Translations under genes and position numbers: made by a program | Notes under the pieces: model-generated | Told to the model about the DNA's origin: nothing | Database searches by the model: none | Seen by the model: the letters and a program-made list of their open reading frames with translations, nothing else | DNA from: Bdellovibrionales bacterium | GTDB lineage: Bacteria > Bdellovibrionota > UBA1018 > CAIMNF01 | Direction of reading: 5' to 3' | Length of the DNA stretch: 64,000 nt | NCBI GenBank assembly: GCA_947502835.1 | Contig: CANNBJ010000001.1 | Coordinates: forward strand, 186,001-250,000 | Part shown: piece by piece, positions 1,133-17,838 of the stretch | How positions within the stretch are numbered: position 1 is the stretch's first letter | Layout of the letters: the number at the start of each line of letters is the position of its first letter

Positions 1133-4100
1133 ATGGAAAACTATCTCAAATTCATCATCTCGAATCGCAAATGGGTCATGGGGCTCACTGCATTGGTAAC
1201 TCTAGGCTTGCTTGCCCAGCTTCGCTCCCTCCAGGTGATCATTGACCCCGATAGTGCGCTTCCCCAAACCCATCCCTATATTGTGACGGGCAAGACAATT
1301 GAAACTGTGTTTGGAAACAAGTTCACGGTCGTGATTGGACTCAGTCCAAAAACGGGCGATGTTTATCAGCCAGAAGTGCTTGAGAAAGTTGCCCGCATTA
1401 CGGATCGAATCATCAAGAGCCCGGCCGCGGTGAAGAGCAACGTAATGAGCCTTTCAGCGAGAAAGGCCAAGGACATCTCGGGAAACGCCGAGGGTATGAC
1501 CGTAAGACCCCTGATGGAGCAAATTCCCAATACCCAAGAGGGGCTCGCCTTACTCAAGGCCTCTGTCGAGAAAAATCCGGCCTATACTGATTTATTGGTC
1601 TCCCGGGATTCTCGCACGACGCAAATCGTGGCCGAGTTCAAAAAAATTAACGGTGGATTTCAAGCGATTACACAGGTGGTTCGGGATGCTGTTGAGCCCG
1701 AGCTTGGTGAAACCGTGGACATTCAGATTTCGGGCCTGCCGGTGTTTTTAGGACTTCTTGAAACGTTTTCCCAACGAATGGGTTTCTTGTTTCCAATTGC
1801 TCTCCTCATCATTGGGCTCATTCATTACGAGGCATTTCGAACCGTGCAGGCCTTGTTCTTGCCGCTCGTTACCGCGATGCTTGCAGTGGCATGGTCGATG
1901 GGACTTCTGGGTTTGTTGAAAGAACCATTTGATGTGTTCAACGCCTCGACACCGATTCTGATTCTGGCCATCGCGGCGGGGCATGCCGTACAGATTCTGA
2001 AGCGCTACTACGAGGAGTACAACATCCTGTATCAAAATAACAGCTCGGGGGATGCAAGAGCCCTGAGTCATGAGGCCGTTCTGAAGTCGCTCATGAAGGT
2101 GGGGCCCGTGATGATTGTCGCCTGTGTGGTTGCGGCCATTGGATTCTTTTCGCTCATGATTTTTGAAATCAAATCTATCCGCACATTCGGGATTTTCACG
2201 GGCGCCGGTGTTCTTTCGGCTCTGATCCTGGAGTTGACCTTTATCCCTGCCTTGAGAGCCATGTTGCCTCCTCCCTCGGTGAAGGAGATTCAACGCGAAC
2301 GAGAGCATGGATTTTGGGATCGGTTGACGGCCTCCTTTTTCAAGCTCGCCTCGGAAAAACGAAAGCCTGTATTTTGGGTGACCGGCATCATGATCGGCGT
2401 GTTGTCCATTGGCGGGATCTATCTCAAGGTTGAGAACAGCCAAAAGGGTTATTTTTACGGAAAAATCAGGGAGCGGATGGACGATGAAGCTCTCAACTCA
2501 AAAATGGCGGGGACCAATCCCATTTACGTATTGATTGATGGCAAGTCCGAGGATGCATTGAAGCGTCCTGAGGTACTGTCGGCAATGGAGGGGTTGCAAC
2601 GAGAACTTGAGAAGTCACCTCTTGTGGGTCGAACAGTTTCGCTTGTGGATTTCATCAAGAAAATGAATCAATCCATGAATGCCGATCAAAAAGAATACTT
2701 TAAACTTCCAACCGATCAGAATCTTATCGCACAGTATCTGCTTCTCTACTCGAATTCGGGTGAGCCAGGTGATTTTGATTCCTATGTGGACTATACCTAC
2801 CAACGCGGCGTCGTCACTGCATTCTTGAAAACCGACAGTTCGATTGCCTTGACCACCCTTGCAAAAAACGCCCAGGATTATGCCGAAAGGAACTTTCCAA
2901 AAGGTATCGATGTGCAGGTGGGTGGCGGTTCACTTGGTGGAGTCGCGCTCAACGAAATCATGATTCGGGAGAAGGTTCTCAATATTTTGCAGATCATGGG
3001 TGCTGTCTTCTTGGTCACCTCACTTGTATTTCGGTCTCTATTGGCTGGTGTATTGATTCTGGTGCCGTTGTTTGCGGCGGTGGCAGTCAATTTTGGAATC
3101 ATGGGACTTCTCGGGATTCCCCTTCAGATTGCAACTGCCTTGGTCAGTGCGATGGCGGTGGGAATCGGAGCGGATTATGGCATCTATATGAGCTACCGGA
3201 TGCGAGAGGAGTTGCGGCAAGAGCCCGATGAGGGAAAAGCCGTTGAGAAATCTTTCGCTTCTGCGGGGAAGGCTACTTTGTTTGTCTCCACTGCGGTTGC
3301 GGGCGGGTTCGGGGTACTTATGCTCTCAACCGGTTTCATGATTCACGTTTGGATGGGATTCTTGATCGCAATGGCAATGCTGGTAAGCTCGATCACTGCG
3401 CTTACCTTGTTCCCAGCGCTGATCTTTACACTCAGGCCCAAGTTTATTTTTGAAGGAAGGAAAAACAATATGAAGGATATGATGAAAAACAGCGAACAAA
3501 TTTCAATGAGTGGAATCGTAGGGGGGGCGCTGATCGCTCTTTCGGTTTCCGCATCTGTACCTGCAATGGCCGGGGACGCAAAAACTCCAGACGCGGTGGA
3601 GATTGCCAAGCGGGCATTCTTGACATCCAAAGTGGTCGATTCCACAAGTGATTCCACCTTTCGCCTGATCAATTCGAATGGGCAAGAGCGGGTACGGAAG
3701 ACCAAGGGGGCTACCCAGCTCATTGCCGGAACCACAGATAATCAGCGAATTGTGGTGTTTGAGTCACCTGCGGACGTCAAGGGGACCAAAACACTGATGG
3801 TGGAGCACTCCCAAGGGGACGATGACATTTGGATTTATTTGCCCGCGATGAAGAAAGTTCGCCGATTAGTGGCAAACAACAAAAAGGACTCATTCGTCGG
3901 AACCGACTTCTCTTATGGGGATGTTATTGGGCACCGGGTTGAGGATTGGAAGCATCAGTGGGTCAAATCCGAATCAGTGGATGGACGGGAGTGTGACGTG
4001 ATTGAGTCGGTCCCGGCAAGACCGGAAGTAGGAAACAACTCGGGGTACTCCAAGCGGATCGGATGGATTGATCGCGAGAGCGCAGTCGCGGTCAAGGGCG

Positions 4101-4312
4101 AGCTTTATGATCTTAACGGGCAACTCTTGAAGAAGATCAACGCGAGAAATATCGAGCGAGTGGATGCAAAAAATAAAAAATGGCAGCCAATGGTTCTTGA
4201 AGCCGAAAATGTTCAAACCGGTCACAAGACGATCATCGAATTCAGCAACTATAAAGCCAATGTGGGTGTGGATCGCGAACAGTTTACCGCTCGCTATCTC
4301 GAAAAAAAGTAG
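1133..4312 (+). CDS. RND/MMPL-family exporter fused to a LolA-like lipoprotein-sorting domain
   Basis: A 1059-residue protein. Residues 1-775 are an RND transporter of the MMPL/hopanoid-exporter type: one N-terminal membrane segment (about 16-33), a first periplasmic loop, a six-helix bundle around 215-380 containing GHAVQ near 284, a second loop, and a second bundle with GIGADYG at about 677-683. The same frame then runs without a stop through Met780 into a signal-peptide-like stretch ending near SVPAMA and a LolA-like domain of the outer-membrane lipoprotein-sorting family. In related loci these are normally two genes. GAAGGAAGG lies just before Met780 (3470), so internal initiation could also make the LolA part alone. 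The usual third partner, an outer-membrane barrel, follows 29 bp later. Substrate unknown, probably a lipid or lipoprotein-like envelope component. Confidence 0.9.
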   Translation: MENYLKFIISNRKWVMGLTALVTLGLLAQLRSLQVIIDPDSALPQTHPYIVTGKTIETVFGNKFTVVIGLSPKTGDVYQPEVLEKVARITDRIIKSPAAVKSNVMSLSARKAKDISGNAEGMTVRPLMEQIPNTQEGLALLKASVEKNPAYTDLLVSRDSRTTQIVAEFKKINGGFQAITQVVRDAVEPELGETVDIQISGLPVFLGLLETFSQRMGFLFPIALLIIGLIHYEAFRTVQALFLPLVTAMLAVAWSMGLLGLLKEPFDVFNASTPILILAIAAGHAVQILKRYYEEYNILYQNNSSGDARALSHEAVLKSLMKVGPVMIVACVVAAIGFFSLMIFEIKSIRTFGIFTGAGVLSALILELTFIPALRAMLPPPSVKEIQREREHGFWDRLTASFFKLASEKRKPVFWVTGIMIGVLSIGGIYLKVENSQKGYFYGKIRERMDDEALNSKMAGTNPIYVLIDGKSEDALKRPEVLSAMEGLQRELEKSPLVGRTVSLVDFIKKMNQSMNADQKEYFKLPTDQNLIAQYLLLYSNSGEPGDFDSYVDYTYQRGVVTAFLKTDSSIALTTLAKNAQDYAERNFPKGIDVQVGGGSLGGVALNEIMIREKVLNILQIMGAVFLVTSLVFRSLLAGVLILVPLFAAVAVNFGIMGLLGIPLQIATALVSAMAVGIGADYGIYMSYRMREELRQEPDEGKAVEKSFASAGKATLFVSTAVAGGFGVLMLSTGFMIHVWMGFLIAMAMLVSSITALTLFPALIFTLRPKFIFEGRKNNMKDMMKNSEQISMSGIVGGALIALSVSASVPAMAGDAKTPDAVEIAKRAFLTSKVVDSTSDSTFRLINSNGQERVRKTKGATQLIAGTTDNQRIVVFESPADVKGTKTLMVEHSQGDDDIWIYLPAMKKVRRLVANNKKDSFVGTDFSYGDVIGHRVEDWKHQWVKSESVDGRECDVIESVPARPEVGNNSGYSKRIGWIDRESAVAVKGELYDLNGQLLKKINARNIERVDAKNKKWQPMVLEAENVQTGHKTIIEFSNYKANVGVDREQFTARYLEKK

Positions 4313-5733: not shown

Positions 5734-6135
5734 CTATCTCTTTTTTCGAGCCCGGTCTTTCGTACTCCCGTCGATTCTCTGCATTCTCGACTTGAAGGCA
5801 CCCAGTTTGAAGGACCTTGAGGCTCGATCCTTCAGATTCCCGTTCTCGTGAACGCGTTTTCTCCAGGCACGAAAGCGAGCAGGCTCAAGCTCCCGCCTCA
5901 TGACATCAATCACTTGGTCTTCTTTCAAGCCGAATTGAGCCTCGATCGCATCAAATGGAGTTCGATCCTCCCATGCCATGCGAATCACCCGGTCCAAATC
6001 CATGCTGCCCCGATTGCCCCGGCACCGATCGCTGCAGTATTTCACTTCTTCCCAGTTTTTTTCCCACTTCTTTCGCCACGCAAACGGGCGTTGGCAGGTG
6101 GCGCAGATTTTTGTCGGCAGGTCGGATTTCTTCAT
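5734..6135 (-). CDS. DUF2256 zinc-finger-like plus TIGR03643 domain protein
   Basis: 133 residues. Residues 9-42 form a DUF2256-type Cys4 unit (Cys11, Cys14, Cys34, Cys38) with the family signature RPFAWRKKWEKNWEEVKYC. Residues 47-97 match the TIGR03643 family (RMAWEDRTPFDAIEAQFGL followed by VMRRELEPARFRAWRKRV). The rest is a basic tail. From family knowledge, both domains often occur beside photolyase/cryptochrome genes in aquatic bacteria. No photolyase is visible here, but the next cluster encodes rhodopsin and retinal synthesis. Nucleic-acid binding is plausible from the Cys4 unit and basic tail, but unproven. Confidence 0.88.
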   Translation of the reverse strand: MKKSDLPTKICATCQRPFAWRKKWEKNWEEVKYCSDRCRGNRGSMDLDRVIRMAWEDRTPFDAIEAQFGLKEDQVIDVMRRELEPARFRAWRKRVHENGNLKDRASRSFKLGAFKSRMQRIDGSTKDRARKKR

Positions 6136-6332
6136 CGGACCCCCGTGCAGGCTAGCTTCGTTTCCATACGCGCCGAGTGTGCCAGTGCCGCCGGAAACGC
6201 GCTACTGAAACAATCGGTTTTTCAGCAGGGCCAGCCCCCGCCATTTCAGGAACCGTTTAGGCCGGGGAAAGCAGGGAGGGGCAATTGAATCTGAGAGTGA
6301 CCAAGAAGATCATTTGACATTCTGGACCTGCG

Positions 6333-6381
6333 GGGGGCAAGATCGGGGGCAACTCAAGTTTCATCCGGTAGAGTTGCCCCC
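6333..6381. promoter_or_regulatory. GGGGGCAA repeats and 11-bp hairpin in the crtE leader
   Basis: GGGGGCAA occurs at 6333-6340 and 6345-6352, and inverted (TTGCCCCC) at 6374-6381. GGGGGCAACTC (6345-6355) pairs perfectly with 6371-6381 across a 15-base loop. The stem ends just before the GAGGAG ribosome site (6384-6389). Short G-rich repeats of this kind next to an integrase-type arm-binding domain could be its arm sites. A leader hairpin affecting translation is the other simple reading. Confidence 0.5.
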
Positions 6382-6395
6382 ATGAGGAGCGGTAG

Positions 6396-7718
6396 ATGGA
6401 AAAAGGACGCGTTTTAACCGAGGCAAGGATCAAAAGTCTGAAGCCAAGCGAGAAGCCGAAGAAGGTTTTTGACAGACATGGGCTTTACCTCGAGGTTTCT
6501 CCGGGCGGAGGAAAATGGTGGCGCTTGAAGTATCGCTTTCACGGAAAGGAAAAAAGACTTTCCCTTGGCGTTTATCCCAAGGTCAAACTGAAGGAAGCAC
6601 GCGAGCAGAGAGACGAAATGAGAAACCTTCTCCGGCGGGGTTTGGATCCGAGTTTGGTCCGGCAGAAAAGCCGCAAGACCGCGAGTTCAAGCCAGGCGCT
6701 CAGCTTCGAGAGGGACTATTTTCGGGATCCAATGATCGAATTGAGTCTTCAGGGCAAAGTGGACCTCTCCTTTTTGAAACAATGGACCACACCAAAAGAA
6801 AATCCCGCTGGCTTGCTTGATCCGCTCCTTCAGCCCCTCGATGAGTTTGTTACCCGTCCGGGAAAACACATCCGTGCGAGTCTGGTTTACATCAGTTTCT
6901 CCATCTCAGCCGCGAACCGTGAACTTTCGGTTCGGGATCGAACCATCCTTCGCCACCTCGCTTCGTGGGTTGAATGGCTCCATGGCGGCTCTCTTGTGAT
7001 CGATGACATTCAGGATCGCGCTGATTCCCGCCGCGGGCGACCGGCACTTCATTCATTGATGGGACAAGCCTCAGCCATCAACGCCGCGAATTGGCTCTAT
7101 TTTTGGCCAACCCAGCGGTTCAGGGCTTTGAAGGTTCCGCAAGGTGTGGAGCTTGAATTGTACCGGATTTACCATGAAACCATGACCCTGGCCCACTTCG
7201 GACAATCCGTCGATCTTGGCTATGATCTGTGTCGTGTTTCGAGGGAGCAGGCTCATTCCATCTCCATGGCGGCCATCGGCCTGAAAACAGGCGCACTCAT
7301 GGGGATGTGCGCGGAACTGGGCGCTGTGGTTGCAGGAGCGGATTCCCGAACCCGAAAGACTTTGCTCGAGTTCGGTCGTGAGTTTGGAGCATCGTTGCAG
7401 ATGTTCAATGATGTGAAGGATTTTACCCCGGAGTCGTTTCAGGCGAGTGTGGAGTCGGGCGGGGTGATTCGACCCTCTTGGGTCTGGGCTACTGCATCGC
7501 GGATTTTGGAGGATGATGAATTCAAAACGCTTCAGGAAGGAATTGCCAGCGGTGCAGGTGAGTGTCGTCTGAGAGACCGGGTTGTGGCAGAAGCGCGAAT
7601 CGGGGCTGAGTCCCGGATGCAGGACAATCTTAAGCTTCTTGAATCGAGATTCAAGAATGATCCCGCAGTCACAAGAGTGAAGGAATTGGCCACTAAACTG
7701 ATGGAGGCATATCGTTAA
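6396..7718 (+). CDS. crtE: Integrase arm-type DNA-binding domain fused to geranylgeranyl diphosphate synthase
   Basis: A 440-residue two-part protein. Residues 5-90 match the DUF4102/Arm-DNA-bind_3 domain from the N-terminus of P4-type tyrosine integrases (LTEARIKSLKP, GLYLEVSPGGGKWWRLKYRF, LSLGVYPKVKLKEAREQRDE, GLDPS). The catalytic integrase core is absent. After a short linker, residues 115-440 are a polyprenyl synthetase with the first Asp-rich motif DDIQD at 203-207, then RRGRPALH, and a second motif NDVKD at 338-342 in which Asn replaces the first Asp. Role: condensation of IPP with allylic diphosphates to GGPP for carotenoids. ATG 6396 has GAGGAG six bases upstream. The inner Met113 lacks a good ribosome site, so the fusion is probably made as one chain. 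crtI follows after one base. Confidence 0.9.
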   Translation: MEKGRVLTEARIKSLKPSEKPKKVFDRHGLYLEVSPGGGKWWRLKYRFHGKEKRLSLGVYPKVKLKEAREQRDEMRNLLRRGLDPSLVRQKSRKTASSSQALSFERDYFRDPMIELSLQGKVDLSFLKQWTTPKENPAGLLDPLLQPLDEFVTRPGKHIRASLVYISFSISAANRELSVRDRTILRHLASWVEWLHGGSLVIDDIQDRADSRRGRPALHSLMGQASAINAANWLYFWPTQRFRALKVPQGVELELYRIYHETMTLAHFGQSVDLGYDLCRVSREQAHSISMAAIGLKTGALMGMCAELGAVVAGADSRTRKTLLEFGREFGASLQMFNDVKDFTPESFQASVESGGVIRPSWVWATASRILEDDEFKTLQEGIASGAGECRLRDRVVAEARIGAESRMQDNLKLLESRFKNDPAVTRVKELATKLMEAYR

Positions 7719-7719
7719 T

Positions 7720-9231
7720 ATGAAAAATCGAATGAAGATCGCAGTAGTGGGGAGTGGTTTTGGTGGCTTGTCCGCAGCAATCCGGTTGCAAACGGCGGGG
7801 CACGAAGTCGTTTTGCTTGAGAAAAGGGACCAACCCGGTGGAAGAGCCTACGTGTACCGGGATCAGGGTTTTGTTTTTGATGCCGGCCCGACAGTGATCA
7901 CGGCTCCGGAGTGCCTGAGGGAGCTCTTTGATGAAGCCGGAAAGCGGATGGAGGATTATGTTGAGCTGATGCCGGTAACCCCATTCTACCGGCTCTTCTG
8001 GGAGAACGGGTATTCCTTCGACTATTCCAATGATCCTGCGAGCACCGCAGAGCAAATCCGGGCAAAGTCACCCAAGGACCTTGATGGATACCTCGAGTTT
8101 CTCGAATACTCCAAGGAGGTTTTCGATGAGGGATACACCAAGCTTGCCCATGTTCCGTTTCTGGACATGAAGAGCATGGTTCGTGTGGCGCCCCAGCTCA
8201 TCCGCTTGAAAGCCCATCGTTCGATTTACAAAACCATCTCAAAGTACGTGAAAGACCCTGAGCTCAGACAAGCCTTCAGCTTCCATTCCTTGTTGGTGGG
8301 GGGGAATCCTTTCAGGACCTCTTCCATCTATACGCTGATTCACTATCTGGAACGGAAGTGGGGAGTGTTTTTTCCGCGCGGGGGTACGGGAGCACTCGTC
8401 CGTGGCCTCGTTCGTCTTTTCGAGGATTTGGGCGGTGAACTCAGGCTTTCGAGTGAGGTCGATGAGGTCCTCTCCAAGAATGGAAAGGTCACCGGGGTTC
8501 GTGTCGGGGGTGAGGTTCAAAATTTTGACTTGGTGGTTTCAAATGCTGACGTCGTTCACAGCTATTCGCATCTCCTTAGGAAAAACCAACAGGTTGAACC
8601 TTCGCGAAGAAAAGTCCTTCGCCAGTCACAAAGCATGTCTCTGTTCCTGATCTACTTTGGCACCAAGCGGCAGTATCCTTCTCTTGCTCACCACAATATT
8701 CTTTTTGGAAGATCCTACCGGAAGCTCCTCGATCAGATCTTCGGGAAGAGCAAGGACATCCCTGATGATTTCTCGCTTTATCTTCATGCGCCCACCCGAT
8801 CGGATCCCTCCATGGCTCCAGAGGGGTGCGAGTCTTTTTATGTGTTGTCCCCGGTTCCTCATTTGGGGAATCTCCCCATTGATTGGAAAAAGCATGGGCC
8901 CCTCTATGCGGAGCGGATTCTGGATTACATCGAGTCCCGGTATGCTCCGGGACTGAAAGAATCCATCGTGACCCAGAGAATCTTTACGCCTGAGGACTTC
9001 AAGAGTCAGCTCAACTCCCATCTTGGTGCCGCATTCTCCACTGAGCCTGTGCTCTGGCAAAGTGCCGCATTCCGAACCCACAACCGGGACGACCATCTGA
9101 AAGGCATGTATTTTGTCGGCGCGGGAACCCATCCCGGTGCCGGGGTCCCCGGTGTCGTCAATTCGGGCAAAGCCACTGCAAATCTCATCTTGGAGGATCT
9201 GCACACAGGCAGATTCGAGGGACGGGCCTGA
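7720..9231 (+). CDS. crtI: Phytoene desaturase (lycopene-forming)
   Basis: 503 residues. The N-terminal Rossmann motif GSGFGG (11-16) binds FAD. GFVFDAGPTVITAP is a carotenoid desaturase signature, and the C-terminal GMYFVGAGTHPGAGVPGVV is the bacterial CrtI motif. It converts phytoene to lycopene at the membrane. The start lies one base after the crtE stop and the stop touches the crtB start codon (TGAATG), so crtE-crtI-crtB are translationally linked. Length and motifs are normal for CrtI. The downstream cyclase indicates four desaturations with lycopene as product. Confidence 0.95.
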   Translation: MKNRMKIAVVGSGFGGLSAAIRLQTAGHEVVLLEKRDQPGGRAYVYRDQGFVFDAGPTVITAPECLRELFDEAGKRMEDYVELMPVTPFYRLFWENGYSFDYSNDPASTAEQIRAKSPKDLDGYLEFLEYSKEVFDEGYTKLAHVPFLDMKSMVRVAPQLIRLKAHRSIYKTISKYVKDPELRQAFSFHSLLVGGNPFRTSSIYTLIHYLERKWGVFFPRGGTGALVRGLVRLFEDLGGELRLSSEVDEVLSKNGKVTGVRVGGEVQNFDLVVSNADVVHSYSHLLRKNQQVEPSRRKVLRQSQSMSLFLIYFGTKRQYPSLAHHNILFGRSYRKLLDQIFGKSKDIPDDFSLYLHAPTRSDPSMAPEGCESFYVLSPVPHLGNLPIDWKKHGPLYAERILDYIESRYAPGLKESIVTQRIFTPEDFKSQLNSHLGAAFSTEPVLWQSAAFRTHNRDDHLKGMYFVGAGTHPGAGVPGVVNSGKATANLILEDLHTGRFEGRA

Positions 9232-10110
9232 ATGGAGTTGACTCCCGACCAGGCGATTCGCCAAGGATCCAAGAGCTTTGCTTTGGCATCCCTGTTTCTC
9301 CCTGTCGAAAACAGGACCCGTGTCAGGATCCTGTATCAGTGGTGTCGTTCGTGTGATGACCTGATTGATGAAGCCCGCGATTCGGACGATTTGAAGAGAC
9401 GGTTGGAGATGGTTCTCAAGCTTTCGCCTCCTGAATGGGTGAATCCGGTTCATGCGCGGGAATTGATCGAAGGGTTCAAGATGGACGCGGAGGGGGCTTT
9501 GTTTCGCGGATTTTCGGAACTTGAACTGTATTGTTTCAGGGTAGCCGGAGTCGTAGGGCTCATGATGTGTCCCCTGATTGGTGCCGATCCTGCAAGGGCT
9601 GATGTGGCTGCGTCCGCTCTTGGAAAAGCGATGCAATTGACCAATATCTGCCGTGACGTTCAGACGGATGCGAAGATGGGGCGAGTCTATTTGCCCTCCG
9701 ATCTGTTGTTGGATTGTCTCGGGAGATCCGCGGTGCCTGCACGAGAACTCTCCTCCGAACCGGAATTGGCGTATCCTGTGGTGAAACGACTCCTTCAGGT
9801 TGCGGATTCCTGGTACCAAATGGGTTTTGAAGGATTGCGGTTTTTACCACTCCGCTGCGCGTTTGCCATCGCGGTAGCCGGCTTGCTGTATCAGGGCATC
9901 GGGAAAACGCTTTTGAGGAATGCTGCAAACGATCCAAAAAGAGCGTTCAGAAAAAGAACCGTTGTTTCGAAATTCGAAAAAAGCATCCTTGTTTTCCGTG
10001 CGATCTTTCTTGTGATCGGGTCAAGACTCCCTGAAAAATCTCGACATCACGGGAGCATGAGCGGCAGTCAGCGCGCCAATCAGGAAGAAGAAAACCTCCC
10101 ACCTCTGTAA
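9232..10110 (+). CDS. crtB: Phytoene synthase
   Basis: 292 residues of the squalene/phytoene synthase family. The two substrate-Mg motifs are clear: CDDLID (residues 41-46) and NICRDVQTD (138-146), followed by GRVYLP. It joins two GGPP molecules to phytoene. The gene starts directly at the crtI stop. Its last 90 bases (C-terminal residues after about 264, low-complexity and polar) overlap the 3' end of the convergent crtY-blh gene, so this tail may be dispensable. Confidence 0.94.
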   Translation: MELTPDQAIRQGSKSFALASLFLPVENRTRVRILYQWCRSCDDLIDEARDSDDLKRRLEMVLKLSPPEWVNPVHARELIEGFKMDAEGALFRGFSELELYCFRVAGVVGLMMCPLIGADPARADVAASALGKAMQLTNICRDVQTDAKMGRVYLPSDLLLDCLGRSAVPARELSSEPELAYPVVKRLLQVADSWYQMGFEGLRFLPLRCAFAIAVAGLLYQGIGKTLLRNAANDPKRAFRKRTVVSKFEKSILVFRAIFLVIGSRLPEKSRHHGSMSGSQRANQEEENLPPL

Positions 10111-11994
10111 GGTTACCATCAAGGCGAATGAGCCAAGGATTGAAAGTGCGGTGAAGGGGAACGCTCTTCGAAAATACTGAGTCGAACTCCATCCGAGTCG
10201 CGATCTTTGAAACATGACAGAATCCCAGCTGTGCCAGAAAACAAAAAAGCACAGGAATCCGGGCAGAAGCGGAAGAGCTGCAAAGCTTGCAGCAAGCACG
10301 AGGGTGCTCAAAACCCCCGCGTGCCGATACCCGGAAGAGCGGGTGACATAGCGGTCAAGAGTGTGGGCCGCGAAAACTGCGAGCACTAAAAGCATGAGTG
10401 ATGCCAAGCAAGCGTCCGCAGTCGAGAGAACTTCGGCAAAACCTGTTTTCCTTAGAAGCGTGTTCAGAATCGGAGTCGATTCATTCCAATGGAAGAGGAC
10501 CCCGAAAAGGGATGCAAAAAGCCCCCAAAGCCAGGAAAAAAATCTCACGGCCAAATGATTCTTTGAATAGCGGATCGCACGATGCCATTGAGCTTCACCG
10601 AAATGATCCGCCGATTGAAGGATGAAAACCAAGAGAACGAGGAGAGGCGCGAGGATGCAAAAGAGCAAAAAGAGGAAAATCCTTCCAAGGTATGGAAGGA
10701 AGAATGCAACGCCGCGGACGGTTTTCGGAGCCATCCAATGATCGATGCTGCCGTGACCAATGCCAATCGTCATCAGCCCTGCCAAAGGAAGCAACCAAAC
10801 GGCGATGGTGCCGGTGCCTGGGAGGAGGTGGAGCAGACAAGTTGCTCCGGTGGCAAAAACAAATGGATATTGCAAGAAAAGTTGCTGAAGAAACGGACGC
10901 AAGGGGAGTGTCATGAAAATGCGAATTTCGTCCAAAAGAGACGAATCCTCATCCAGAAATGCGAAGACCCGGTTCTCTGGATTGCGAGAAAACAAACGGT
11001 AGAAAATCTCAGCCCCGAGATTGCCATTTTGCCCGAGGACCCCAAGGAGGATCTTGTCATAGACTTGAAACCGGAAGGAAAAGAGAGGATGTTTCTGCGA
11101 ATTCAAAGCGCGGCAGTTTCTTTGAAAAGAATACCCGGTGCTTGGCTTGACCCGCCCTGCGGCTCCGCCAATCGTGCGTACTCTCGAATCGAGGAAGGCG
11201 GGAGCAAATCGGGGCTCCACTTCAAGGCTCATCGGGATATCACCGGACTCCTTTCGGATCACGCGGAACGTTTCCAGCCCAAGCTTGCTTGAAAGGTAAC
11301 TCCGAAGGAGTTCCTCGCACTCGGAATCGGGAATTCTGTTTCTTGAAAAGACCGTGAATTCGGCCAATGCTGTGCGCGTGCCAAAGGGCAAAATGTAGAC
11401 AAAGCGGACTGCGCCTTCCTGTGGCACCCTGAAGTCCATGAGCACCACAGAGGTCGGATCAAAGACATCGAAATCGGTCTCAATTTCCAATCCTAGAAAA
11501 TACTGGATCATGGAGTCCCGGGGATACTGAGCCACTGAGGTTAAGATCGTATCTGACAAGACTTTTTGACCCGAATCGAGTTCAACCTGCAAGGGACGTC
11601 CTGCGAGGGATTCTTCGATCTCGGATGTGATCCGTTCGACTGAGGCACTGAAGCGTGCCAACCTCGGGTCGAGGAGCGTGTCCTGGCCCAGAAATGAAAG
11701 AATCCGGTCCCCCGGAATTCTCTCATAGACATAAGCATCAAAGCGCCGATGCAGGAGTTCACCCTTTGGTCCGACAATCCGGAAGTGCTCCCAATGATCG
11801 GTAACCAAATGGGAAAACGGGTTGCCGTGAAGATCCTTGCGTCTCCAGCTCGAGAAGGTTTTTTTGCCCAGACTCTCAGGATCAGGATCTACGAGCGCAA
11901 GCTTAAGGTTCGGGTCCTCGTGTTTCAGGATGGAGCGGGCATGGAGAAACCCTGAAAGTCCTCCGCCAATGATGAGGGTGTCAAAGCGATTCAC
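10021..11994 (-). CDS. crtY-blh: Lycopene beta-cyclase fused to beta-carotene 15,15'-dioxygenase (CrtY-Blh)
   Basis: 657 residues in one uninterrupted frame. Residues 1-340 are a CrtY-type lycopene cyclase: GGGLSG (10-15) dinucleotide motif and GGAAGRVKPSTGYSF (276-290). Residues 365-657 are a multi-pass Brp/Blh protein with the expected iron-ligand histidines: GHGSIDH (413-419), SADHFGE (461-467), FHWNES near 502, FWHSW (586-590) and a final His646. The protein would cyclise lycopene to beta-carotene and cleave that centrally to two retinals, channelling product to the rhodopsin gene upstream. The GTG start at 11994 has GGAG seven bases before it. Usually crtY and blh are separate genes. It overlaps convergent crtB by 90 bases. 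Confidence 0.92.
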   Translation of the reverse strand: MNRFDTLIIGGGLSGFLHARSILKHEDPNLKLALVDPDPESLGKKTFSSWRRKDLHGNPFSHLVTDHWEHFRIVGPKGELLHRRFDAYVYERIPGDRILSFLGQDTLLDPRLARFSASVERITSEIEESLAGRPLQVELDSGQKVLSDTILTSVAQYPRDSMIQYFLGLEIETDFDVFDPTSVVLMDFRVPQEGAVRFVYILPFGTRTALAEFTVFSRNRIPDSECEELLRSYLSSKLGLETFRVIRKESGDIPMSLEVEPRFAPAFLDSRVRTIGGAAGRVKPSTGYSFQRNCRALNSQKHPLFSFRFQVYDKILLGVLGQNGNLGAEIFYRLFSRNPENRVFAFLDEDSSLLDEIRIFMTLPLRPFLQQLFLQYPFVFATGATCLLHLLPGTGTIAVWLLPLAGLMTIGIGHGSIDHWMAPKTVRGVAFFLPYLGRIFLFLLFCILAPLLVLLVFILQSADHFGEAQWHRAIRYSKNHLAVRFFSWLWGLFASLFGVLFHWNESTPILNTLLRKTGFAEVLSTADACLASLMLLVLAVFAAHTLDRYVTRSSGYRHAGVLSTLVLAASFAALPLLPGFLCFFVFWHSWDSVMFQRSRLGWSSTQYFRRAFPFTALSILGSFALMVTLQRWEVFFFLIGALTAAHAPVMSRFFRES

Positions 11995-12072: not shown

Positions 12073-12843
12073 TTAGTTTGACTCGCTTGCAGTAACAGCG
12101 ACATTCCAAATAATCACTCCGAACCCGATCTTGTTCACAACGTCAGCGAAGTTGTAAACGATGTTGAGGGTGCCCATGCTGTCAGCAGGATTGGCGCCTG
12201 TCAGATATCCGATAAAGTATCCGATCGGATAAACCGCCCATCCGAAAACAACAATCGCTCTCATGGTCTTGTAAGCGGATTGTACTGCAGGGGGAGCCTG
12301 GGTGGTTCCCATCTTGCCTGCTTCGCCGGCATAGATTTCGTAAATCACGAAGAACCATGCAAGCATACTGAAGATGTAGGCGGGCCATACGCCCATGTAG
12401 CCCGCTTCGCCGAGGTAGCCGAAAATCAGCATCACGGTGGTGCCGAGGATCAAGCGCCAGAAAATTCCTGCGGATGCTTTTCCGATTGCTCTCAGGATCA
12501 GGTAGAATTCAGTGATCAGGAGGGGCACGGTGATCAACCAGTCGATGTAACGGTACACGGTCGGAGTGCTACCGGTTTCAACCCACACATCACGCATGTA
12601 GAAGTAATGGGTTGCGGCCACGAGGGTCACAAGACCGGACACGGTCAAAGAAGTCTTCCACTTGCCGGAAACACGCTGAATCTCCATAAAGAAGAATGCG
12701 GTTGCCGCGATCAAAGCCATCGAGATGATCCAAAATGAGATCCCTACGAAGTCGTTCTGGTTCAACATCTTGGAACTTGCAAACGCTGGCTGAGCAGCCA
12801 GACATGCTAAAGCCACTGCATTTCTTAGTCTGAAAAGAGACAT
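12073..12843 (-). CDS. Proteorhodopsin-type light-driven proton pump
   Basis: 256 residues, seven membrane helices after a cleavable signal peptide (about 1-22, AQPAFA-SS). The third-helix segment RYIDWLITVPLLITEF supplies the proton acceptor Asp101, Thr105 and donor Glu112 (DTE motif of proton-pumping proteorhodopsins). His79 pairs with the counterion, and Lys238 in FADVVNKIGF binds retinal. Leu109, at the spectral tuning site, predicts green absorption. The frame is open to 13014, but ATG 12843 is chosen because AGGAGG lies eight bases upstream and a signal peptide follows. A TATACAT box at about 12889-12895 (minus strand) may be a -10. Retinal would come from the adjacent crt/blh genes. 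Confidence 0.97.
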   Translation of the reverse strand: MSLFRLRNAVALACLAAQPAFASSKMLNQNDFVGISFWIISMALIAATAFFFMEIQRVSGKWKTSLTVSGLVTLVAATHYFYMRDVWVETGSTPTVYRYIDWLITVPLLITEFYLILRAIGKASAGIFWRLILGTTVMLIFGYLGEAGYMGVWPAYIFSMLAWFFVIYEIYAGEAGKMGTTQAPPAVQSAYKTMRAIVVFGWAVYPIGYFIGYLTGANPADSMGTLNIVYNFADVVNKIGFGVIIWNVAVTASESN

Positions 12844-13043
12844 GGTCTTAATCCTCCTGGATTGAGTTTTGCCCAAAAGGGCACTTGTTATGTATAGGAC
12901 AAGGCTACAGGCGTTTTTGACGCAAAAGCAACAAAAAACCACCACCCCGTCGATTTCACGTCGGAGGAGTGAACGCGCGAGCGGATTGCTGACTACCTGA
13001 CTGTTTTCATCCATATGCGGGATGGGGTTTGGATTGCAGATGC

Positions 13044-16223: not shown

Positions 16224-16299
16224 GCGGCGGTAGCTCAGTTGGTAGAGTGCGAGCTTCCCAAGCTCGAGGTCGCGGGTTCGACCCCCGTCCGCCGCTCCA
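16224..16299 (+). tRNA. tRNA-Gly (anticodon CCC)
   Basis: 76-base cloverleaf: acceptor GCGGCGG pairs with CCGCCGC, D-arm GCTCAGTTGGTAGAG, anticodon stem CGAGC/GCTCG around loop TTCCCAA (anticodon CCC, reading GGG), T-arm GCGGGTTCGACCCCCGT, discriminator U, and an encoded CCA end at 16297-16299. No integrated element is visible at its 3' end; the next gene starts 37 bases later. Confidence 0.96.
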
Positions 16300-16336: not shown

Positions 16337-17056
16337 GTGATCCATGCACAAAGAGAACTGCGGAAATACGCAAACGCCGAAAACAAAAAAATCAATGAAT
16401 GGTTCTTCAAGACCGGCCCCGGAGAGTACGGATTCGGGGACCGGTTCATCGGGGTCAAGATTCCCCAGAACCGGGAAGTCGCGCGCAAGTTTCATGATCT
16501 CGCATTCACGGACCTGAAAAAACTTCTCCAGTCACCGGTCCATGAGGACCGGATCCTTGCGCTTCTCATTCTTCGTCCGAGATTTGAAGTGGAGCGAAAG
16601 AAAGGAAATCGAAAGGAACAGGAGCGGATTTTTGAATTCTACCTCAGTCTCAAGGATCGGGTGAATAATTGGGATTTGGTCGATGTTTCAGCCCCCTACA
16701 TTCCGGGGCCCTATATTTTTGATCATCCGGGCCGAAGGAAGGAGGTGCTTGCATTGGCAAATTCCCCGTCCATGTGGGACCGGAGAATCGCGATCCTGAG
16801 CACTTTCTATTTCATTCGACAGAACCGGTTTTCTGAAACCCTTGCTCTTGCGCGCAAATATTTGAATGACCCTGAGGATCTCATGCATAAATCGACGGGA
16901 TGGATGCTACGGGAAGCGGGAAAGCGGGACATTGCGACTTTGCGCAGGTTTTTGGATCAGCATGCGCAAAGGATGCCTAGAACCATGCTTCGTTATTCCA
17001 TCGAAAGGATGGGAGCGAGGGAGAGGCTCAAGTACATGAAACGGCAGGACCGCTAA
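16337..17056 (+). CDS. DNA alkylation repair protein, AlkD family
   Basis: 239 residues of helical HEAT-like repeats. The segment NNWDLVDVSAPYI places Trp112 and Asp116 at the positions of the Trp/Asp pair used by Bacillus AlkD to remove bulky or cationic N3/N7-alkylpurines. Length is that of the family. The start is GTG 16337 with AGGAG about ten bases upstream. It follows tRNA-Gly and overlaps the convergent SGNH gene by four bases. Function in base excision repair is from family knowledge. Confidence 0.92.
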   Translation: MIHAQRELRKYANAENKKINEWFFKTGPGEYGFGDRFIGVKIPQNREVARKFHDLAFTDLKKLLQSPVHEDRILALLILRPRFEVERKKGNRKEQERIFEFYLSLKDRVNNWDLVDVSAPYIPGPYIFDHPGRRKEVLALANSPSMWDRRIAILSTFYFIRQNRFSETLALARKYLNDPEDLMHKSTGWMLREAGKRDIATLRRFLDQHAQRMPRTMLRYSIERMGARERLKYMKRQDR

Positions 17057-17838
17057 TTCCGGATTTGCCCGCAAACTTTATGGGCGAGCTCCCGTGCAGC
17101 CTCTCCGCACACATGGATGTTGTCGTTCGATGCTGCTTGAAGACAGCCGTTTGTACCGGGCACATGAACTCGTTTCAGGGTTTCATTCGAGAGAAGGAGG
17201 GGACTGCTTCCCATGAGTTCAAGTCCATCGAGCACCCTGCATCCCTCTTCAGCTTCCGCACGGATGGCGGAAAGAACCCTTTTTGTGTTGGCCAGATTCT
17301 TGGCAGGTACGTTTCTTTTGGTGGAAACTTCCATCTCGTAGGTCGGGGTGACAAGAATACAGTCGGAAGCCGAAATTCCCGCTGTTCTGATCTGTTCGAG
17401 AAGAAGTCTGTACTGCCGTCTGATTTCAGCCGGTTCAGCCGATAAAAGGTTGTCTCCGAAAAAGAGAATCAATTTCCTTGGTCTGTGTCCGGAGAGGAGA
17501 GGAGCGAGTCGTTTCATGCAAACAGGGGCCTCGGAGGCTCTCAGGATCTTGTGCGGGTGTTCAGAATCGCGGATCACCAAGTTTACCGAATCAAGGCTCT
17601 TTCGGTTCAGCCAATCGACAGGTTGGGTGCCGCCCCGGCCATAAATCGCAAAGGATGGCGAAAGCGGATGCTTTTTCAGGCAGGTTTGAAGGAAGTTTCC
17701 GAAATAAGAGGTGGCCCAGATCGCGCCTGTCTGCGAATCGCCCAAAACCAGAACGTCCACGGGTCTGTCCGGGCATTCGTTTCGAGCCTTGGCACTTGGA
17801 AACGCCAATGACCAGATCATCAAAATGAAGCCAAGCAT
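17053..17838 (-). CDS. Exported SGNH/GDSL-type hydrolase
   Basis: 261 residues from ATG 17838, chosen because GGGAGGA lies six bases upstream and a signal peptide follows (cleavage near SAKA-RN). Block I is LVLGDSQTG (Ser35 nucleophile). Block III is degenerate but visible as LILFFGDN. Block V is DNIH near the C-terminus (Asp/His). The fold is that of periplasmic esterases or acetyl-hydrolases acting on glycans, but the substrate is not evident. The frame is open to 17943 without a better start. Confidence 0.85.
   Translation of the reverse strand: MLGFILMIWSLAFPSAKARNECPDRPVDVLVLGDSQTGAIWATSYFGNFLQTCLKKHPLSPSFAIYGRGGTQPVDWLNRKSLDSVNLVIRDSEHPHKILRASEAPVCMKRLAPLLSGHRPRKLILFFGDNLLSAEPAEIRRQYRLLLEQIRTAGISASDCILVTPTYEMEVSTKRNVPAKNLANTKRVLSAIRAEAEEGCRVLDGLELMGSSPLLLSNETLKRVHVPGTNGCLQAASNDNIHVCGEAARELAHKVCGQIRN

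Follow-up and report, generated by a model that had tools for sequence, protein, structure and literature searches.

A P4-type integrase leader and arm domain joined to a putative GGPP synthase in a Bdellovibrionota carotenoid-rhodopsin cluster: a candidate self-repressing enzyme

Control of an integrase by its own product is documented for several P4-type elements. Both P4 Int and the PAI I536 integrase IntI repress the promoter from which they are expressed (PMC7286903), and IntS of KplE1, which binds in the vicinity of the -10 box, represses its gene, intS, about 5-15 fold (PMC2951348). Among metabolic enzymes, PutA carries an N-terminal DNA-binding domain with which it represses its own operon, and a DNA-binding domain grafted onto a PutA lacking one was functional (PMC5293562). 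Few enzymes are known to repress their own operon by means of a fused DNA-binding domain, and their origins are seldom visible. At the locus described here the parts can be traced, and an integrase promoter, its operators and its DNA-binding domain appear to have been moved together into a metabolic operon. Enzymes that carry a DNA-binding domain of their own are already known as a kind; the version derived from an integrase, with its captured promoter, is new as far as our searches reach.

The window, i.e. the whole stretch of 64,000 nucleotides that we analysed (G000:C1:186001-250000), comes from a Bdellovibrionales genome and contains a single frame of 440 amino acids, with 0 internal stops, in which an integrase arm domain precedes CrtE (Table 1). 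A first-pass annotation made from the sequence had described a DUF4102-type domain in one frame with a polyprenyl synthetase holding DDIQD and NDVKD, and the Pfam search bears this out: PF13356 (Arm-DNA-bind_3) matches with E 6e-26 and 90.8 bits (cut-off 27), and PF00348 (polyprenyl_synt) matches residues 144-346 with E 1.5e-35 and 123 bits, both far above cut-off, with the two motifs at residues 203-207 and 338-342 and no frameshift between the domains. The loss of the integrase catalytic core, likewise claimed, is also seen, as the 440-aa protein has no Pfam match to PF00589 or the core-binding and catalytic domain (R-H-R-Y). In NCBIfam an integrase model covers residues 4-104 and the remainder is matched by isoprenyl diphosphate synthase models, every score lying below the strict model cut-offs. 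Solved relatives of the N-terminus are the arm domains 3jtz/3rmp and 3ju0, and those of the C-terminus are prenyl synthases, which are also the best PDB matches of the AlphaFold2 model of the fusion. In this model (seven-sequence alignment; mean pLDDT 75.5) the arm and CrtE parts form separate folded units, with low confidence at residues 89-121 and 131-140, and the arm domain is predicted to sit on a flexible linker as a fold of its own.

The fusion is confirmed as real in this assembly. That an integrase end and crtE were brought together by assembly or binning is very improbable: the genome is of the uncultured type, and the place can be hard to assemble, as in G009, the relative of the same genus whose crt cluster is nearest, the contig ends at crtE residue 236 and is uninformative on the fusion; however, the gene is interior to a 635,876-bp contig and not at its edge (8-contig genome, 98% complete, 2.73 Mb), the two parts share strand and frame and meet no more than 24 nt from the CrtE start, and the arm segment is host-like in composition. 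Nor is there a source for such a fragment, since PF13356 is matched once in the entire 2.73-Mb genome, by the fusion gene itself. Matches to PF00589 on the same contig are at a distance of at least about 109 kb, and the rest are on other contigs.

Table 1. Features of the fusion locus, in window positions; residues follow the numbering of the fusion protein.
Feature	Position	Strand	Basis
-35 element TTGACA, putative integrase promoter	6314..6319	+	most related integrase leaders, and the int promoter annotated for phage P4, have it at the same place with a spacing of 17-18 bp
Arm-type site 1, GGGGGCAA	6333..6340	+	corresponds in alignment to the 'attP arm sequence repeat' of P4 and to related leaders
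-10 element CAAGAT, overlaps arm site 1	6338..6343	+	18-bp spacer from TTGACA; 3/6 consensus match, weak
Arm-type site 2, GGGGGCAA, 12 bp after site 1	6345..6352	+	leader alignment
11-bp perfect inverted repeat from sites 2 and 3, 15-nt loop	6345..6381	.	unique in genome
Arm-type site 3, inverted GGGGGCAA, adjoins old integrase start codon	6374..6381	-	leader alignment
Remnant of integrase start: ATG at conserved place, now out of frame; 11-codon ORF MRSGRWKKDAF	6382..6417	+	leader alignment; weak ribosome site
Shine-Dalgarno GAGGAG of fusion	6384..6389	+	anti-SD pairing score
Fusion gene: integrase arm domain and CrtE (GGPP synthase by family and motifs)	6396..7718	+	translation, Pfam
Arm DNA-binding domain PF13356, residues 7-91	6414..6668	+	Pfam; integrase homology extends to residue 105 (6710)
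Codon of Arg54, identity tracks arm-site base	6555..6557	+	column-by-column comparison
Junction between integrase homology and old CrtE Met113	6711..6731	+	seven codons
CrtE part, residues 113-440, polyprenyl synthetase	6732..7718	+	DDIQD 7002-7016, NDVKD 7407-7421
crtI, phytoene desaturase, next operon gene	7720..9231	+	Pfam, NCBIfam
crtB, phytoene synthase	9232..10110	+	Pfam, NCBIfam

The junction can be placed closely. CrtE orthologs of Bdellovibrionota align from about residue 112-118, with Met113 the counterpart of their start region, and the integrase homology (ending ...SFE) stops about seven to eight codons upstream; the ancestral pieces are therefore seven codons apart, and the old untranslated leader of crtE is nearly all gone. 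The CrtE part has the first DDxxD motif and the PF00348 fold. In the second Asp-rich motif, Asn stands first in most of the compared orthologs as well and the last Asp is lost in some, and a more distant ortholog (L037) reads DDLTA there. Judging from its family, these motifs and the neighbouring crtI and crtB, the CrtE part probably makes GGPP (C20).

Coupling of the downstream crtI, as noted previously, agrees with a gap of 1 nt between the crtE stop and the crtI start, and crtB comes directly after crtI. Beyond crtB, the opposite strand encodes a lycopene cyclase-Blh fusion and then a proteorhodopsin. The former joins CrtY (lycopene cyclase) and Blh (beta-carotene 15,15'-dioxygenase) in one 657-aa frame (10021-11994, minus strand) and has near-full-length homologues in G009 (63%) and in Oligoflexales MAGs (L033-L036, about 45%). 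Its 3' end overlaps that of crtB by 90 bp (10021-10110), with a similar overlap in G009 (L048, about 17054-17077). The proteorhodopsin gene (12073-13014, minus strand) encodes DWLITVPLLITE, which on inspection reads as a D-T-E proton-pump motif of the green-absorbing kind; it is in line with crtY-blh in the window, whereas the rhodopsin gene of G009 is divergent from crtY-blh. Two further composite frames lie on the other side of the fusion gene: at 5734-6135 (minus strand) DUF2256 and DUF2805 share one frame, the match being interrupted by a stop codon in some same-genus genomes, and at 1133-4312 (plus strand) the frame of an RND/MMPL-type transporter runs on, by eye, into a LolA-like (outer-membrane lipoprotein-sorting) domain.

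The layout appears to be confined to this genome. None of the other genomes of the same class (58) or phylum (369) has the fusion, none of the CrtE orthologs examined in Bdellovibrionota crt-rhodopsin clusters has an arm domain, and a protein with both domains was found neither in the GTDB contig scan nor in the plasmid records or literature searched, although absence there is not proof. The first-pass annotation, which knew of no described protein of this layout, is in line with these searches. With the arm domain as query, the matches listed in a phage search were integrases or unannotated. Arm-only frames in two genomes (G122, G126) were considered as further fusions and rejected, as one runs off a contig end and the other is a 158-aa truncated integrase.

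The leader of the operon is organized like that of an integrase gene. A direct pair of arm sites at 12 bp is followed 35 bp on by an inverted third site by the start codon, and the same geometry is found in phage P4 and about 35 related integrases; same-phylum integrases (L105-L110) share the arrangement, as does the closest integrase found (L051), with whose leader blastn aligns 6333-6384 at 75%. In the P4 records, annotated arm repeats and the annotated int promoter fall at matching places (the P4 -10 being CATAAT), and the order of -35 element, 18-bp spacer and -10 element inside site 1 is the P4 layout. The exact arm pair at 12-bp spacing occurs in the crt leader and nowhere else in the genome. 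Derivation of the leader (6314-6395) and the arm domain from one integrase gene is well supported by these alignments, and the captured integrase promoter probably drives crtEIB. It should be noted that the promoter was assigned by alignment to P4 and its relatives, and that a sigma-70 scan of the leader called none because the -10 element matches the consensus in just three of six places. Other readings of the leader were rejected: an Rfam search around it at a permissive threshold gave matches at chance level only, and so no known riboswitch; the stability of the 11-bp hairpin is unremarkable given its composition (z -1.4), and two arm sites in opposite orientation account for it; and a fourth, partial repeat (GGGGCAATTGAA, 6278-6289) falls outside the conserved geometry and was left as chance. 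Upstream of the fusion we found neither a tRNA nor a tmRNA that could serve as attachment site (6000-6800 gave no tRNA match, and the nearest tRNA lies at 16224) and saw no second set of arm sites, so that the history of the locus is incomplete.

Translation signals have been rearranged relative to the ancestral integrase. Its ATG (6382) persists out of frame with the arm domain, and a new GAGGAG with the ATG at 6396 serves the fusion. Anti-SD pairing of this GAGGAG scores -8.3 kcal/mol (background 2.5% point -8.4); at Met113 the value is -4.1, where the background has a median of -3.0. The fusion start, earlier called the only good ribosome site, is indeed the best placed, but it is not strictly the sole one, as in-frame TTG codons also score at residue 44 (-9.5, at a long spacing of 12 nt) and residue 87 (-5.7).

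A link between the arm domain and its sites emerged from comparison of related loci. Each leader's three sites carry C or T as the fifth base, almost always in step. We compared 37 distinct proteins (loci L116-L183, L105-L110 and L067), in a set widened by a scan of viral contigs with the arm alignment, with the fusion included and duplicates and the broken gene L181 left out. All 22 proteins with C sites (GGGGCA), the fusion among them, have Arg54, and all 15 with GGGGTA or mixed sites have Leu54 (14) or Gln54 (1). Column 54 ranks first of all arm-domain columns in tracking the site base, and when a tree is made with columns 54 and 31 omitted, parsimony requires at least six switches of site type, with residue 54 switching along, including within the neighbouring pairs L116/L123 and L140/L148. 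The second peptide pattern of the scan favoured Arg or Leu at position 54, which narrows the other residues seen but cannot create the pairing. Two candidate exceptions were resolved, L181 being a broken gene and L175 having mixed sites. Residue 54 against the fifth base thus looks like a recognition rule for the P4-type integrase family (Arg with GGGGCA, Leu with GGGGTA), which is testable and could be useful for predicting att sites and integrase regulation. With Arg54 and three GGGGGCAA (C) sites the fusion has a matched set, and at the level of sequence its arm domain agrees with the putative operators at its own promoter. Residue 31 (Tyr or Phe) partly tracks the site base as well. L116 and L123 adjoin the same kind of tRNA-Met gene and have a common sequence after the arm domain, with different arm domains and correspondingly different sites, which suggests that the leader is exchanged together with the arm domain in recombination.

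The arm domain itself is well preserved. Of the residues that do not vary among 16 integrases the fusion keeps 17 of 17, and of the near-invariant ones 14 of 16, a retention equal to that of the integrases themselves in a leave-one-out comparison, and its arm segment has a GC3 of 0.60 (window mean 0.63) and a codon usage that is somewhat atypical yet within range. An old, decayed relic is excluded by the invariant residues and the host-like composition; a young relic is compatible with both. Such a relic would result if a fairly recent deletion had left crtEIB downstream of the promoter and ribosome site of the integrase, with the arm domain as a passenger that carries the start codon and with the sites and residues surviving through the short time elapsed. 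We regard this as somewhat short of an even chance and rank it nearly as likely as self-repression. Genes commonly acquire expression signals by exchanging their starts; the fusion is confined to one genome among those of its class and phylum, and the short linker near the old CrtE start is as a chance deletion would give. On the other hand, the branch leading to the arm domain is long, at 0.65 substitutions per site counted from the node it has in common with the nearest sampled integrase, and yet no invariant position has been lost, although the change may predate the fusion, and the start region has been rebuilt with translation of the arm domain still kept. The first-pass annotation had weighed self-regulation against a relic supplying the start signal; the preserved integrase promoter, the three arm sites and the matching residue 54 strengthen the former, and both readings stand.

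On balance, and by a little better than an even chance, we consider capture of an integrase leader, with the chimera acting as a GGPP synthase that represses its own operon, to be the best explanation. A P4-type integrase gene would have been truncated and joined in frame to crtE by a rearrangement, with crtE-crtI-crtB taking over the integrase leader (promoter, three arm-type sites and start region) and the N-terminal arm domain. The product would be a GGPP synthase with a tethered site-specific DNA-binding domain, in which the DNA-binding parts of the integrase loop are kept and the recombinase is swapped for the synthase. Prenyl synthases of CrtE's family are usually dimers, so that two arm domains would be presented to a pair of sites. 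As the protein accumulates, these domains, two per enzyme dimer, may occupy the three sites, which would take in part of the -10 element, the transcription start predicted near 6349-6352 and the stretch leading up to the ribosome site; transcription would thereby fall. This would place negative feedback on the supply of carotenoid, and hence of retinal, in a pathway that has CrtE as its first enzyme and feeds a light-driven proton pump. That the fusion represses crtEIB is proposed by analogy with the self-repression of P4-type integrases, and several points call for caution: the kept sites and residues, known from a single genome, are equally expected of a young fusion; with the fusion in one genome only, selection after the fusion event is not measurable; an isolated arm domain without the integrase core may bind too weakly; the -10 element (CAAGAT) is weak; and the second Asp-rich motif of the putative synthase begins with Asn, though most of the compared orthologs share this.

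Alternatively, the arm domain could tether the GGPP synthase to DNA or act in trans on integrase-type sites, e.g. those of incoming P4-type elements. The recognition residue is kept, and the domain should bind any GGGGGCAA set; however, the genome has no other exact arm pair, an enzyme of a biosynthetic operon would be an odd carrier for such a role, and we give this use little credence. Returning to self-repression, we put forward, tentatively and with some doubt, that an integrase arm domain, promoter and operators were taken whole as a feedback module for a carotenoid-retinal-rhodopsin photoheterotrophy operon, yielding an autorepressor GGPP synthase that could change its binding to DNA with the dimer state or with prenyl substrates.

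Three known systems bear comparison with this locus. Other Bdellovibrionota CrtEs share the DDIQD motif and the crtE-I-B order and are 41-61% identical to fusion residues 113-440 over the aligned parts; they start near Met113 and, among those examined, have no arm domain, whereas the fusion adds one. The P4-type integrases (P4 Int, IntS of KplE1, IntI of PAI I536, HPI and HAI7) share PF13356 with the fusion, at up to 60% identity, as well as arm sites that overlap the promoter -10 element and an inverted site at the start codon; unlike them, the fusion is without a core-binding and catalytic domain and without an adjacent tRNA or tmRNA attachment site, and its arm domain heads a biosynthetic enzyme. 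In proposed logic the closest parallel is trifunctional PutA, in which enzyme and autogenous repressor are likewise one chain with the DNA-binding domain at the N-terminus, BirA being a second example of an enzyme and autogenous repressor in one chain. The DNA-binding domain at the present locus is an integrase arm domain and not of the RHH or HTH type; it is attached to an enzyme of isoprenoid biosynthesis, and regulation by it is proposed.
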